Shown here in pieces: positions 39,216-42,823 of a stretch of DNA of 46,857 nucleotides. Every line of letters begins with the position of its first letter. The first letter of the stretch is position 1. The DNA lies in the NCBI GenBank assembly GCA_028697145.1, contig JAQVFR010000019.1, positions 13,546 to 60,402 of the forward strand. The letters run 5' to 3'. The DNA is from Actinomycetota bacterium. Its GTDB lineage: Bacteria > Actinomycetota > Geothermincolia > Geothermincolales > RBG-13-55-18. A model generated the notes under the pieces. The model saw only the letters and a list, made by a program, of their open reading frames with translations, did no database searches and was not told the DNA's origin. A program made the translations under genes and the position numbers.

Positions 39216-41003
39216 ATGAGCCTGGGTAAATGGAAGGCCGGACCGCTTGGCGGGCTTGCGGCAAAGCTCACTTTAACCACGTGCTTCTCCCTGATCTTGC
39301 TCATCTCACCCCTCGCCGCCATTGAACCGGCGCATGCCGCGTGGAGCGGCGGGCACGACGTGATGGGTAGCGGTGGCGCGCGCAGGACCTGGTTCTTCGC
39401 CGAGGGCTGCACGCGCACCGGGTTCGAGGAATGGGTCTGTCTTTTCAATCCCGGCGCGGCGGAGGCCATCGCTACCTGCACCTACATGCTGGGAGATGGG
39501 CAGGTCGTAGCGAGGGACGAGGTCCTGGCGCCGCGGAGCCGCACCACCATAAACGTGGGGGCGGTCGTCCCCGCTGGCAGTGATGTCTCCCTGGCCATCG
39601 AGGCCTCGCAGGATATCGTCGCCGAACGCCCCATGTACTTCCGCTACCAGGGCACCATAACCGGAGGGCACAACGTCATGGGGGCGGAAGCCCCCCGCGA
39701 GGAATGGTTCTTCGCCGAGGGCTGTTCCCGCGAAGGATTCGATACCTGGCTCTGCCTGCAGAACCCCACGGGCGAGGCCGCCGTATGCGACATCAGCTAC
39801 TACTGCGGCGACGGCACGAGCGAGGAGAGGGTGGGCATCGGCCTGGCCCCCAACTCCCGCTCCACCATCCCCGTGCACGAGACCGGCCTGGGCCTGGGGC
39901 GCGCAGGCGACGCCCGCGGCGATTTCTCCATCGCGGTGCGCTCGACCAACTGCGTGCCCGTAGTCGCCGAACGCCCCATGTACTTCCGCTACCAGGGCAC
40001 CATAACCGGAGGGCACAACGTCATGGGGGCGGAAGCCCCCCGCGAGGAATGGTTCTTCGCCGAGGGCTGTTCCCGCGAAGGATTCGATACCTGGCTCTGC
40101 CTGCAGAACCCCACGGGCGAGGCCGCCGTATGCGACATCAGCTACTACTGCGGCGACGGCACGAGCGAGGAGAGGGTGGGCATCGGCCTGGCCCCCAACT
40201 CCCGCTCCACCATCCCCGTGCACGAGACCGGCCTGGGCCTGGGGCGCGCAGGCGACGCCCGCGGCGATTTCTCCATCGCGGTGCGCTCGACCAACTGCGT
40301 GCCCGTAGTCGCAGAGCGTCCCATGTACTTCCGCTACCGCAGCCTGCAGCCGGAATGGATGAGCGTGGACCGCGACGCGCTGGTGCGGTCACTGGGGACG
40401 GGGGAGATAGCGAGCGGCAATACCGCGCAGAAGCGCGTAGCCCTGACCTTCGATGCCGAGCAGGACCGCGCCGCGACCACCGCCATCCTCGACGCACTCA
40501 GGGCCTGCGATGTCCACTGCACCTTCTTCGTGCTGGGCGGATACGCGGACCAGTATCCGGACCTGGTCAAACGCATGGCCGACGAAGGTCACGAGGTGGC
40601 CAGCCACTCCTACAGCCACGCTGACTTCGCAGCTTCTTCGGCGGAAAAGCGCCGGGCCGAGCTGCTTTCAGCGGAGGCCGCCATATCCCGCATAACCGGA
40701 TATTCACCCCGGCCGTATTTCCGTTTTCCTTACGGGTCCAGGAACGCCGCCGCCATTTCGCAGCTCAACTCCATGGGATATATAAGCGTCTACTGGAACG
40801 TAGACCCCTGGGACTGGAAAGGGATAAGCGCGGGAGCCCTCTACTCGCGCATCATGTCCGCGGTGAGGCCGGGAGCCATCGTGGTCATGCACACGGTATA
40901 TGCGTCCCAGAAGGCCGGGGCCCTGCCCGCCGTCATCCGCGACCTGCGCGCCTCCGGCTATGAGCCCGTGACCGTGACCGAGGTCCTCCTGGCGGACGAC
41001 TGA
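39216..41003 (+). CDS. Secreted polysaccharide deacetylase with three N-terminal WFFAEGC-type repeats
   Basis: 595-residue exported protein. The signal peptide (hydrophobic CFSLILLISPLAAI, cleavage near AHA-AW) precedes three copies of a Cys/Trp-rich beta module (WFFAEGC...GFxxWxCLxNP...). The second and third are identical at protein level. The NodB deacetylase domain (about 405-590) keeps the metal and catalytic pattern: Asp in ALTFDAEQD (usual TFDDGP altered), H-S-Y-S-H near 473, RFPYGSRN near 510, DPWDWK near 540 and VVMHTVY near 565. It would act on peptidoglycan or surface glycan, with the repeats as binding or spacer modules (inference). The CDF gene starts one base after its stop. Confidence 0.9.
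   Translation: MSLGKWKAGPLGGLAAKLTLTTCFSLILLISPLAAIEPAHAAWSGGHDVMGSGGARRTWFFAEGCTRTGFEEWVCLFNPGAAEAIATCTYMLGDGQVVARDEVLAPRSRTTINVGAVVPAGSDVSLAIEASQDIVAERPMYFRYQGTITGGHNVMGAEAPREEWFFAEGCSREGFDTWLCLQNPTGEAAVCDISYYCGDGTSEERVGIGLAPNSRSTIPVHETGLGLGRAGDARGDFSIAVRSTNCVPVVAERPMYFRYQGTITGGHNVMGAEAPREEWFFAEGCSREGFDTWLCLQNPTGEAAVCDISYYCGDGTSEERVGIGLAPNSRSTIPVHETGLGLGRAGDARGDFSIAVRSTNCVPVVAERPMYFRYRSLQPEWMSVDRDALVRSLGTGEIASGNTAQKRVALTFDAEQDRAATTAILDALRACDVHCTFFVLGGYADQYPDLVKRMADEGHEVASHSYSHADFAASSAEKRRAELLSAEAAISRITGYSPRPYFRFPYGSRNAAAISQLNSMGYISVYWNVDPWDWKGISAGALYSRIMSAVRPGAIVVMHTVYASQKAGALPAVIRDLRASGYEPVTVTEVLLADD
39633..40322 (+). repeat. Two tandem near-identical 345-bp units
   Basis: Units 39633-39977 and 39978-40322 (115 codons each) match base for base by eye, except for three silent changes near the end of the second (gcc/gca, gaa/gag, cgc/cgt before ATG 40323). 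A third, diverged copy precedes them. Near-complete DNA identity points to a recent duplication or ongoing gene conversion; such units may vary in number. Confidence 0.95.
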
Positions 41004-41004
41004 G

Positions 41005-42009
41005 ATGAAGAGACGAGCCAGCCCCAGAAAGCCCACCCCGTCTCACGATCACGACCACACCCACGGCGTTACCGACCCCGTCATCCTCTCCACGGAGCGG
41101 GGGATAAGGGCGGTGAAGTGGTCACTGCTCGCCCTCCTGGTCACGGGCGCCATCCAGGTGGCGGTGGTGCTGCTTTCCGGGAGCGTCGCGCTCCTCGCCG
41201 ACACCATACATAACTTCGGGGACGCCTTCACCGCCGTGCCGCTGTGGATCGCGTTCCGCCTGGGCCGACGCGAGCCCACCCGGCGTTTCACCTATGGACT
41301 GGGCAGGCTGGAGGACCTGGCGGGAGTGGCCATCGTGATCATCATCCTGGGGAGCGCGGCCTTTGCCGCCTACGAGTCCGTGAACCGCATCCTCAACCCC
41401 CGGGACTTGAGCAACCTCTGGGTGGTGGCGCTAGCGGCCGTGGTAGGTTTTGCCGGCAACGAAGCGGTGGCCATCTTCCGTATCAGGGTAGGGAAGGAGA
41501 TCGGCAGCGCCGCGCTGGTCGCGGACGGCTACCACGCGCGCGTGGACGGCCTCACCAGCCTGGCCGTCCTGGCCGGGGCCATCGGGGTGTGGCTCGGGTT
41601 TCCCCTGGCGGACCCCATCGTTGGCCTGGTCATCACCGCGGCCATCCTGCGCATCGTCTGGCAGTCGGGCAAGGCCGTCTTCACCCGGCTCCTGGACGGC
41701 GTCGACCCGGAGGTGACGGGCGAGATAGCCCATGCCGTCTCGCACGTCACCGGCGTGCGGGAGGTCACGGGGGTACGCGTGCGGTGGCTGGGCCACCGCC
41801 TGCATGCCGAGCTGAACCTCAGCGTCCGCGCGGACCTCTCGGTCGAGGAAGGACACGATATTGCCGTGGAAGCGCGCCACCAGCTCCTGCACCACCTCAA
41901 ATACCTCTCGGATGCCACAATCCACGTGGACCCCGAGCACGCCTCCGGGGGCGAGTACCACTGCATAGGCGGTCACGAGCACGACGATTATCCCTTGCAT
42001 TCACACTGA
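41005..42009 (+). CDS. Cation diffusion facilitator (CDF/ZnT) metal transporter
   Basis: 334-residue CDF exporter with a His-rich start (SHDHDHTHG), six membrane helices and a C-terminal cytoplasmic domain. Metal-site motifs: 'LLADTIHNFGDAF' (H-x3-D in helix II) and 'ADGYHARVDGLTS' (the second H-x3-D in helix V). The tail ends in a His-rich run (GHEHDDYPLHSH). The start ATG follows the deacetylase stop by one base, indicating translational coupling. Zn, Fe, Co or Mn export; metal specificity not resolved. Confidence 0.93.
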   Translation: MKRRASPRKPTPSHDHDHTHGVTDPVILSTERGIRAVKWSLLALLVTGAIQVAVVLLSGSVALLADTIHNFGDAFTAVPLWIAFRLGRREPTRRFTYGLGRLEDLAGVAIVIIILGSAAFAAYESVNRILNPRDLSNLWVVALAAVVGFAGNEAVAIFRIRVGKEIGSAALVADGYHARVDGLTSLAVLAGAIGVWLGFPLADPIVGLVITAAILRIVWQSGKAVFTRLLDGVDPEVTGEIAHAVSHVTGVREVTGVRVRWLGHRLHAELNLSVRADLSVEEGHDIAVEARHQLLHHLKYLSDATIHVDPEHASGGEYHCIGGHEHDDYPLHSH

Positions 42010-42101
42010 GGGGCTCCGCTCGCGAAACGCGGGCTTTCACGGTGCATGCCTCAGGCACGAGGCGAGGCTTGACCCCAGTGCCTCAGGTCTGACCCATATC
42101 A

Positions 42102-42131
42102 TTTACCATTATATGTTATTATGTTTATATA
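42102..42131 (+). promoter_or_regulatory. Candidate promoter of hsp20
   Basis: TTTACC (42102-42107) and TATATA (42126-42131) are 18 bases apart in a strongly AT-rich block. A start near 42138 would leave a leader of about 165 bases that begins just before the long inverted repeat. No CIRCE or HAIR (HspR) operator was seen. Confidence 0.45.
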
Positions 42132-42150
42132 TGGTTGGAGGCGAAGTTTC

Positions 42151-42247
42151 GGCGAAGGGCCGTTGAGCGTCGTCTTAAACAGGACTCGATAACGAGTAGA
42201 ACCTCAGTGGGGACGCAAGGGGAGCCTGAAGACCGCGGCCCTTCGCC
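42151..42247 (+). ncRNA. Structured 5' leader RNA of hsp20 (three-way-junction candidate)
   Basis: GGCGAAGGGCCG (42151-42162) is perfectly complementary to CGGCCCTTCGCC (42236-42247), a 12-pair stem. Inside, GTCTT (42172-42176) pairs with AAGAC (42229-42233) and, after an aaa bulge, CAGG (42180-42183) with CCTG (42225-42228). This encloses hairpin ACTCG-ataa-CGAGT (42184-42197) and a possible CCTC/GGGG hairpin (42202-42222). Closing stem, bulged stem and two inner hairpins make a three-way junction. It could be a thermosensor, riboswitch or stabiliser; the SD is about 43 bases farther and not obviously sequestered. No known class recognised. Confidence 0.6.
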
Positions 42248-42302
42248 GGAACCAGGTAACAATGGCGAAGAATGAGATATCACGTGAAGGGAGGTGTGAG
42301 AG

Positions 42303-42755
42303 ATGGCTATAGTGAGATGGACGAACCCGTTCCTGCCGGCGACGTACCGCGAGTGGTTCCCACGGGGCTTCCTCTTGAGTGACCTGGCCGAGTTCCCGCT
42401 GCGTTCGGAGCACTTCGTGCCGAGGATGGACATATACAGCGAGGACGCGGACGTGATGGTGAAGATGGACCTTCCTGAGTTCAAGGCGGAGGACGTCGAC
42501 GTGAGCGTGGAGGAGTCGTGCCTGACCATCTCGGGCAAGAGCGAACACGAGGAGAAGGTCGAGGAAAAGGACTATTATCGCAGGGAGCGTTATTCCGGCG
42601 CCTTCACTCGCACCGTGCAGCTGCCTCCGGACGTCAAGGAGGAGGACATCTCGGCGGACCTCAAGGACGGGATCCTGGAGGTGCGCATAAAGGGCGCCGC
42701 CGAGAAGGCCTCGGCCGTCACCGGCAAGAAGAAGATAGCGATCTCCTCGTCGTAA
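42303..42755 (+). CDS. Small heat shock protein, Hsp20/alpha-crystallin family
   Basis: 150-residue holdase chaperone. The alpha-crystallin domain spans about residues 38-135: 'PRMDIYSEDADVMVKMDLPE' at its start, 'YYRRERYSGAFTRTVQLPPDV' (about 80-100) and the family's 'ADLKDGILEVRIKG' near 120. The short C-terminus is Lys/Ser-rich. ATG 42303 has GGGAGGTG six bases upstream. A small overlapping reading frame (ATG 42262 to TAG 42312, 16 codons) runs through its start and could couple translation. A strong terminator follows at 42784. Confidence 0.95.
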   Translation: MAIVRWTNPFLPATYREWFPRGFLLSDLAEFPLRSEHFVPRMDIYSEDADVMVKMDLPEFKAEDVDVSVEESCLTISGKSEHEEKVEEKDYYRRERYSGAFTRTVQLPPDVKEEDISADLKDGILEVRIKGAAEKASAVTGKKKIAISSS

Positions 42756-42783
42756 CGGCAGGCGCCGCCAGGCGAGACAGTTG

Positions 42784-42823
42784 ACGCGGGCTTTCCTGCG
42801 GAAGGCCCGCGTTTTCTTTCTTT
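42784..42823 (+). terminator. Rho-independent terminator of hsp20
   Basis: ACGCGGGCTTTCC (42784-42796), loop TGC, GGAAGGCCCGCGT (42800-42812) form a 13-pair stem with one wobble, followed by TTTTCTTTCTTT up to 42823. The clearest intrinsic terminator in the window; it ends the hsp20 transcript. Confidence 0.9.

Follow-up and report, generated by a model that had tools for sequence, protein, structure and literature searches.

A probable structured leader RNA with a covarying closing helix upstream of hsp20 in an uncultured actinobacterial genus

To our knowledge, the leader-RNA controls described for small heat-shock genes come from proteobacteria and cyanobacteria, and mostly act by melting over the ribosome site. 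ROSE elements mask the Shine-Dalgarno sequence by heat-labile pairs, and the fourU and Synechocystis hsp17 thermometers are short hairpins that pair with it. By definition, the ribosome site of an RNA thermometer is base-paired and is opened by temperature; small heat-shock genes are the commonest targets (PMC4166951). In gamma-proteobacteria IbpA binds directly to its own 5′ UTR and acts there as a repressor (PMC10474464).

Here we describe the leader of an hsp20 gene from an actinobacterial genome, which is probably a real, conserved and previously uncatalogued leader RNA, found on present data in one genus. Like ROSE, it is a 5′ leader that belongs to a small heat-shock gene and has several stem-loops and expected translational control; unlike ROSE, its main helix, P1, is GC-rich and stable and ends well before the Shine-Dalgarno sequence. 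It shares its position in a small heat-shock leader with the fourU and hsp17 thermometers, but here the Shine-Dalgarno site lies outside P1. A preliminary description had set the leader apart from ROSE and fourU and had called for a scan of Rfam. The distinction is borne out: Rfam gave no match at the gathering threshold in the window, and with the cut-off relaxed to E 10 neither of the two species examined below had a relevant one, consistent with an uncatalogued element; the four consecutive U residues of a fourU element do not occur in 42124-42302.

The hsp20 locus and helix P1

The window, meaning the whole stretch of DNA analysed (46,857 nucleotides; G000:C48:13546-60402), is part of a 2.98 Mb assembly of the species referred to here as G000. 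The hsp20 gene (42303-42755) lies on the + strand, as do the signals and leader elements described below, and encodes a 150 aa small heat-shock protein with an alpha-crystallin domain (Pfam HSP20, E 2.9e-22). Its Shine-Dalgarno sequence, GGGAGG, is at 42289-42294, and an intrinsic-terminator-like hairpin at 42783-42813 marks a monocistronic end. The initiation region is conserved in a congeneric genome, G001, and in a second hsp20 paralog of G000 (G000:C42; L002:1501-1531), where it is 90% like that of the window gene over 31 bases. No leader comparable to that of the window gene was found at the paralog.

The segment GGCGAAGGGCCG (42151-42162) is perfectly complementary to CGGCCCTTCGCC (42236-42247), with a spacing of 73 bases. 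This 12-pair stem, exactly as first reported, forms part of a longer helix, P1, of 18 continuous pairs including two G-U pairs, between 42146-42163 (5′ arm) and 42235-42252 (3′ arm). The 12-pair part ends 41 bases 5′ of the Shine-Dalgarno sequence, close to the approximately 43 bases originally given. No other perfect inverted repeat of at least 12 bp with a loop of up to 150 bases exists in the whole window. Repeats of this kind arose by chance at a mean of 0.4 per shuffle of the whole window, and of 4000 sequences made by shuffling just the leader, one contained such a repeat. The fold energy of the leader surpassed chance only moderately (z -2.5): 2 of 200 shuffles did as well. The preliminary description had called the folding far beyond chance, which is justified for the stem but not for the fold energy.

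An 18-base conserved element, TGACCCATATCATTTACC, at 42090-42107 is likely to be the promoter or operator region (TGACC...TATGTT/TATATA), and a consensus promoter scan gave no strict sigma-70 match. As this element lies upstream of P1, transcription would start 5′ of P1, at approximately 42124-42138. A start downstream of 42247 had been raised earlier as an argument against the structure; the likely promoter lies upstream of P1 instead. The pattern TGACCNANNTCATTTANC has a single occurrence in each of G000, G001 and a third genome, G003, always near an hsp20 gene, and no further one in the 31 class genomes. It is thus confined to sequence upstream of hsp20, in three genomes from two genera, and is possibly an hsp20-specific operator. 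In G003 the element is followed by a leader of approximately 100 bases that lacks P1.

Conservation of the leader in a congeneric genome

G001 is the one congeneric genome that holds this hsp20 (81% protein identity; record JAFGDU010000083.1, 'MAG: Actinomycetota bacterium isolate Zod_Metabat.1188'). The leader adjoins hsp20 in both species, although the immediate upstream gene and the downstream genes differ. In the window, hsp20 is preceded by a histidine-rich CDF, cation-efflux-type transporter gene (41005-42009; Pfam was run on the window protein only), and in G001 by a PadR-like gene and a different CDF-like protein (L036:1970-2602). A polysaccharide deacetylase gene is common to both, with the differing transporter genes between it and hsp20. 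The window copy (39216-41003) has a near-identical tandem duplication of approximately 115 aa in its N-terminal half (DUF5719-like).

Covariation of the stem had been set beforehand as the test of the structure. On a plain sequence alignment of the two leaders, P1 was in register and free of gaps, with arms GGCGAAGGGCCGU/GCGGCCCUUCGCC in G000 and AAGGGGAGGUCGU/AUGACCUGCCCUU in G001. Only 10 of the 26 arm bases are identical, yet 12 of the 13 pairs of the inner part of P1 (5′ arm 42151-42163) are kept in G001, the exception being a G.G mismatch, and six of the pairs have changed on both sides. P1 thus covaries. None of 6000 column shuffles gave an in-register helix as good as P1. Given the G000 stem and substitutions of the number and kind observed, at least 12 standard pairs would be kept with a probability of 0.011; when at least 11 Watson-Crick pairs are required in addition, the probability is 4e-4. 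For the whole structure, pairing fell from 97% in register to 33-52% when partners were slid by one to three columns.

The 53-base core enclosed by P1 behaves differently from the arms, with 42 of 53 bases identical (79%). Its 5′ part, TGAGCGTCGTCTTAAACAGGACTCGATAACGAGTAGAA (42164-42201), contributes 29 of 38 and its 3′ part, GGGAGCCTGAAGACC (42220-42234), 13 of 15. For comparison, identity between the two species at fourfold sites of hsp20 is 59%. The arms have diverged with their pairs kept while the core has changed little; what has been retained between G000 and G001 is thus pairing in P1 and sequence in the core. It is very probable that the RNA structure is real.

The further stems and two inner hairpins of the preliminary description fared less well, as the exact inner hairpins of the minimum free energy fold are not conserved and its inner stem GCGUC/GACGC is not kept in G001. 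An alternative three-way junction fits both species, with 96.6% of cells paired. It consists of GUC/GAC (42172-42174 with 42231-42233; invariant), CAGG/CCUG (42180-42183 with 42225-42228; one mismatch in G001), the P2 hairpin ACTCG-ATAA-CGAGT (ACUCG-AUAA-CGAGU in the RNA; 42184-42197), and P3, a hairpin of variable length (42202-42222). The base of P3 is CCUC/GGGG in G000 and CUUU/AGGG in G001, where P3 is 12 bases longer, and it covaries at one pair. As the helices within the core are mostly invariant, covariation is uninformative for them, and the three-way junction is a modelled fold consistent with both sequences. Two other readings of the core were rejected. A hammerhead-like reading of the conserved CUGANGA was dropped because inspection showed the GAA(A) partner segment to be missing at the required place, and a kink-turn or box C/D reading because the UGA is not retained in G001.

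A different account of this structure is that it serves mRNA stability or processing, a stable 5′ structure protecting or marking the hsp20 mRNA with no sensing involved. The great stability of P1 and its position near the inferred 5′ end fit this, but a structure that did no more than stabilise the mRNA would not require 79% identity in a core whose enclosing stem has turned over in sequence, and we regard the account as very unlikely.

Distribution of the leader and its counterpart in sister genera

The covariance model, run on approximately 460 genomes of the phylum, returned G000 and G001 alone. The search took in the 31 genomes of the class and a draw of 396 from across the phylum, followed by 64 from two further classes, which partly overlap that draw and yielded no match. 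A weak match in G011 (E 1.57) was not credible. The 22-base core pattern, searched in approximately 85,000 species, recovered only the G001 record (records of the leader's own genome were possibly omitted from the scan), and it had no match in viral contigs. Several independent homologues across taxa, as expected of a riboswitch, were not found by either search, G000 and G001 being the only members. A third congener, G002, lacks this hsp20, and the dyad ACTCG-N4-CGAGT in that genome lies near an unrelated ORF. Comparative support comes from two sequences of one genus, together with a hairpin shared with a second genus; both assemblies are incomplete drafts, that of G001 being metagenome-assembled.

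The shared hairpin was found in the sister genus g4, in two genomes (G005 and G009) whose hsp20 proteins are 60-61% identical to that of the window. Weak model matches (15.3 and 10.6 bits) were obtained immediately upstream of hsp20; GGACTCGANNNCGAGTA is present exactly in both, approximately 110-120 bases before hsp20 and inside a small Cys-rich ORF. From the leader, g4 retains only the ACTCG-N4-CGAGT hairpin, with an identical stem and a variable loop. As the P2 sequence also occurs in this sister genus, P2 predates the genus, and P1 and the 3′ core were seen only in the genus of G000 and G001. A P1 equivalent was sought in G005 and G009 and rejected: the predicted rods that enclose the hairpin share no common register and lie within coding sequence.

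In g4 and a further genus, g5, an ORF of 70-85 aa precedes hsp20 (L008, L009, L010, L011, L012, L013), with the motif CxxCGSxGSIEFDMCQVC(L)(F/Y)(D/E), which reads CxxCGSAGSIEFDMCQVC in the ORF that contains GGACTCGANNNCGAGTA. The Pfam zinc-ribbon matches of this zinc-ribbon-like ORF are weak and below cut-off. Relatives occur in 13 genomes of the class, with one family member elsewhere in G000, and the ORF looks like an undescribed partner of hsp20.

The leader might then be a remnant of this ORF, or encode a leader peptide derived from it, with the core conserved as coding sequence. The GGACTCGANNNCGAGTA stretch of G000 does fall within the ORF in G005 and G009, and by hand count one frame has five of the seven differences between the G000 and G001 cores at its third positions. 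This bias is not significant (estimated at approximately 0.1-0.3 after choice of frame), the frame has a stop in G001, differs from that of the sister-genus ORF and has poor start codons, and P1 evolves by pairing rather than by codon. An origin of the conservation in coding is highly improbable.

The identity of the P2 stem in genera g1 and g4, with a loop that varies, points to base-specific recognition, and raises the possibility of a protein site: Hsp20 could bind the leader RNA, for which the direct binding of IbpA to its own 5′ UTR offers a precedent, or a DNA-binding regulator could bind the dyad ACTCG-N4-CGAGT, with P1 presenting or protecting the site. The dyad is no commoner than a reversed control in the 31 class genomes, so it does not define a regulon, and it was rejected as a regulon operator. 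The HrcA/CIRCE box TTAGCACTC-N9-GAGTGCTAA occurs at two other places in the genome and not at this hsp20, and CIRCE and HspR boxes were rejected as the cause of the dyad because their spacing or orientation is wrong. A DNA operator would in addition leave the covariation of P1 and the second conserved block unexplained. We consider a protein site of either kind unlikely.

The preliminary suggestion of a new regulatory RNA for a chaperone gene is partly supported, in that the leader is conserved and structured, has a covarying P1 and is absent from Rfam. A regulatory function is likely, and a role acting in cis is reasonably well favoured.

Pairing with the ribosome site and relation to known systems

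In G000, P1 had a predicted probability of 0.98 at every temperature from 15 to 60 °C when up to 30 nt of coding sequence were included. Because the Shine-Dalgarno site is outside P1 and no melting is predicted at 60 °C, a melting thermometer is disfavoured. A Shine-Dalgarno sequence or start codon paired in the cold and freed by melting was not found in G000, where the Shine-Dalgarno sequence is only partly paired elsewhere.

Part of the P1 3′ arm has a possible alternative partner in the Shine-Dalgarno region. In G000, 42239-42246 (CCCUUCGC) is complementary to 42284-42291 (GUGAAGGG), which overlaps the Shine-Dalgarno sequence; the corresponding pairing in G001 is ACCUGCCCUU/GAGGGGAGGU. In both species the P1 3′ arm outperformed shuffled arms in pairing with the Shine-Dalgarno region (P 0.045 in G000 and P 0.019 in G001), in registers that differ. 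No terminator-like hairpin was seen between P1 and hsp20.

The same complementarity would permit a two-state RNA thermometer, in which the P1 3′ arm masks the Shine-Dalgarno sequence in the cold, and P1 wins and opens the site on heating. The G001 models show such an indirect, refolding version of thermometer behaviour when the coding sequence is short. There the P1 and anti-Shine-Dalgarno folds have almost equal energies, and warming moves the balance to P1, which is not the case in G000. With 15 nt of coding sequence, the predicted probability of P1 in G001 was 0.13 at 15 °C, 0.52 at 37 °C and 0.78 at 60 °C, while pairs between the 3′ arm and the Shine-Dalgarno region fell from 8.2 to 1.1 between 15 and 60 °C. 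The gene is also of the kind that thermometers most often control (PMC4166951). Against this, P1 of G000 is predicted to stay formed throughout with short coding sequence, and the energy needed to open its Shine-Dalgarno site changes modestly, from 3.2 to 1.4 kcal/mol between 15 and 60 °C; extending the coding sequence to 60 nt weakens the trend in G001 and leaves the Shine-Dalgarno sequence masked by coding sequence; and there is no ROSE or fourU match. A refolding thermometer is therefore quite unlikely.

With 60 nt of coding sequence in G000, the 3′ core competes by pairing with codons at approximately 42340-42363, and the predicted probability of P1 falls to 0.33-0.90 at 15-25 °C. Three blocks are complementary between 42220-42250 and 42340-42363 (GGGAGCC/GGUUCCC, CGCGG/CCGCG and UCGCCGG/CCGGCGA), of which only the first is possible in G001.

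The best explanation overall, to which we give a probability of roughly 0.4, is a genus-restricted structured 5′ leader that acts in cis on hsp20 translation, in which helix P1 would present the conserved three-way-junction core and the 3′ arm of P1 would double as an anti-Shine-Dalgarno strand. With P1 formed, the ribosome site would be free; if the core or P1 were remodelled by a bound factor or other signal, the 3′ arm would be released and could mask the site. The complementarity of the arm is observed, whereas its use, the sensor and the direction of the response are what we infer. The particular switch between P1 and the anti-Shine-Dalgarno fold is put forward only tentatively. P1 of G000 is so stable that a change to the other fold looks hard, the register differs between the species, and a pyrimidine-rich arm tends to resemble an anti-Shine-Dalgarno sequence. 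A broader and rather doubtful proposal is that the leader represents a new cis-regulatory RNA class of uncultured Actinomycetota, a junction sensor with a long P1 and an anti-Shine-Dalgarno 3′ arm that would respond to a bound molecule or protein and not by melting, and that may have arisen where the zinc-ribbon-like ORF precedes hsp20 in sister genera.

In this uncultured actinobacterial lineage, a leader that is conserved, covaries and has a junction core would represent a route to small heat-shock control other than melting. Such RNAs can be very narrowly spread, in this case one genus among the approximately 85,000 species scanned, and a small reporter construct could test the leader without culturing the organism.

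Among systems with two conformations, the lambda cIII and cspA thermosensors resemble the leader in that mutually exclusive folds freeing or masking the Shine-Dalgarno sequence are possible, most clearly in G001; they differ in that the models confine G000 to a single fold, and no sequence relationship was found. Autoregulation at the IbpA 5′ UTR likewise has a small heat-shock mRNA leader as its target, but concerns another phylum and another leader, and is a candidate parallel only. Translational riboswitches share the closing P1, the conserved junction core and a 3′ arm capable of anti-Shine-Dalgarno pairing, and the two sequences do display such a core, conserved and enclosed by a P1 that covaries. 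The leader differs from them in that its target is a chaperone gene and not a metabolic one, P1 of G000 is unusually long and the known distribution is one genus. By analogy, the leader most resembles a translational riboswitch or a protein-responsive leader.
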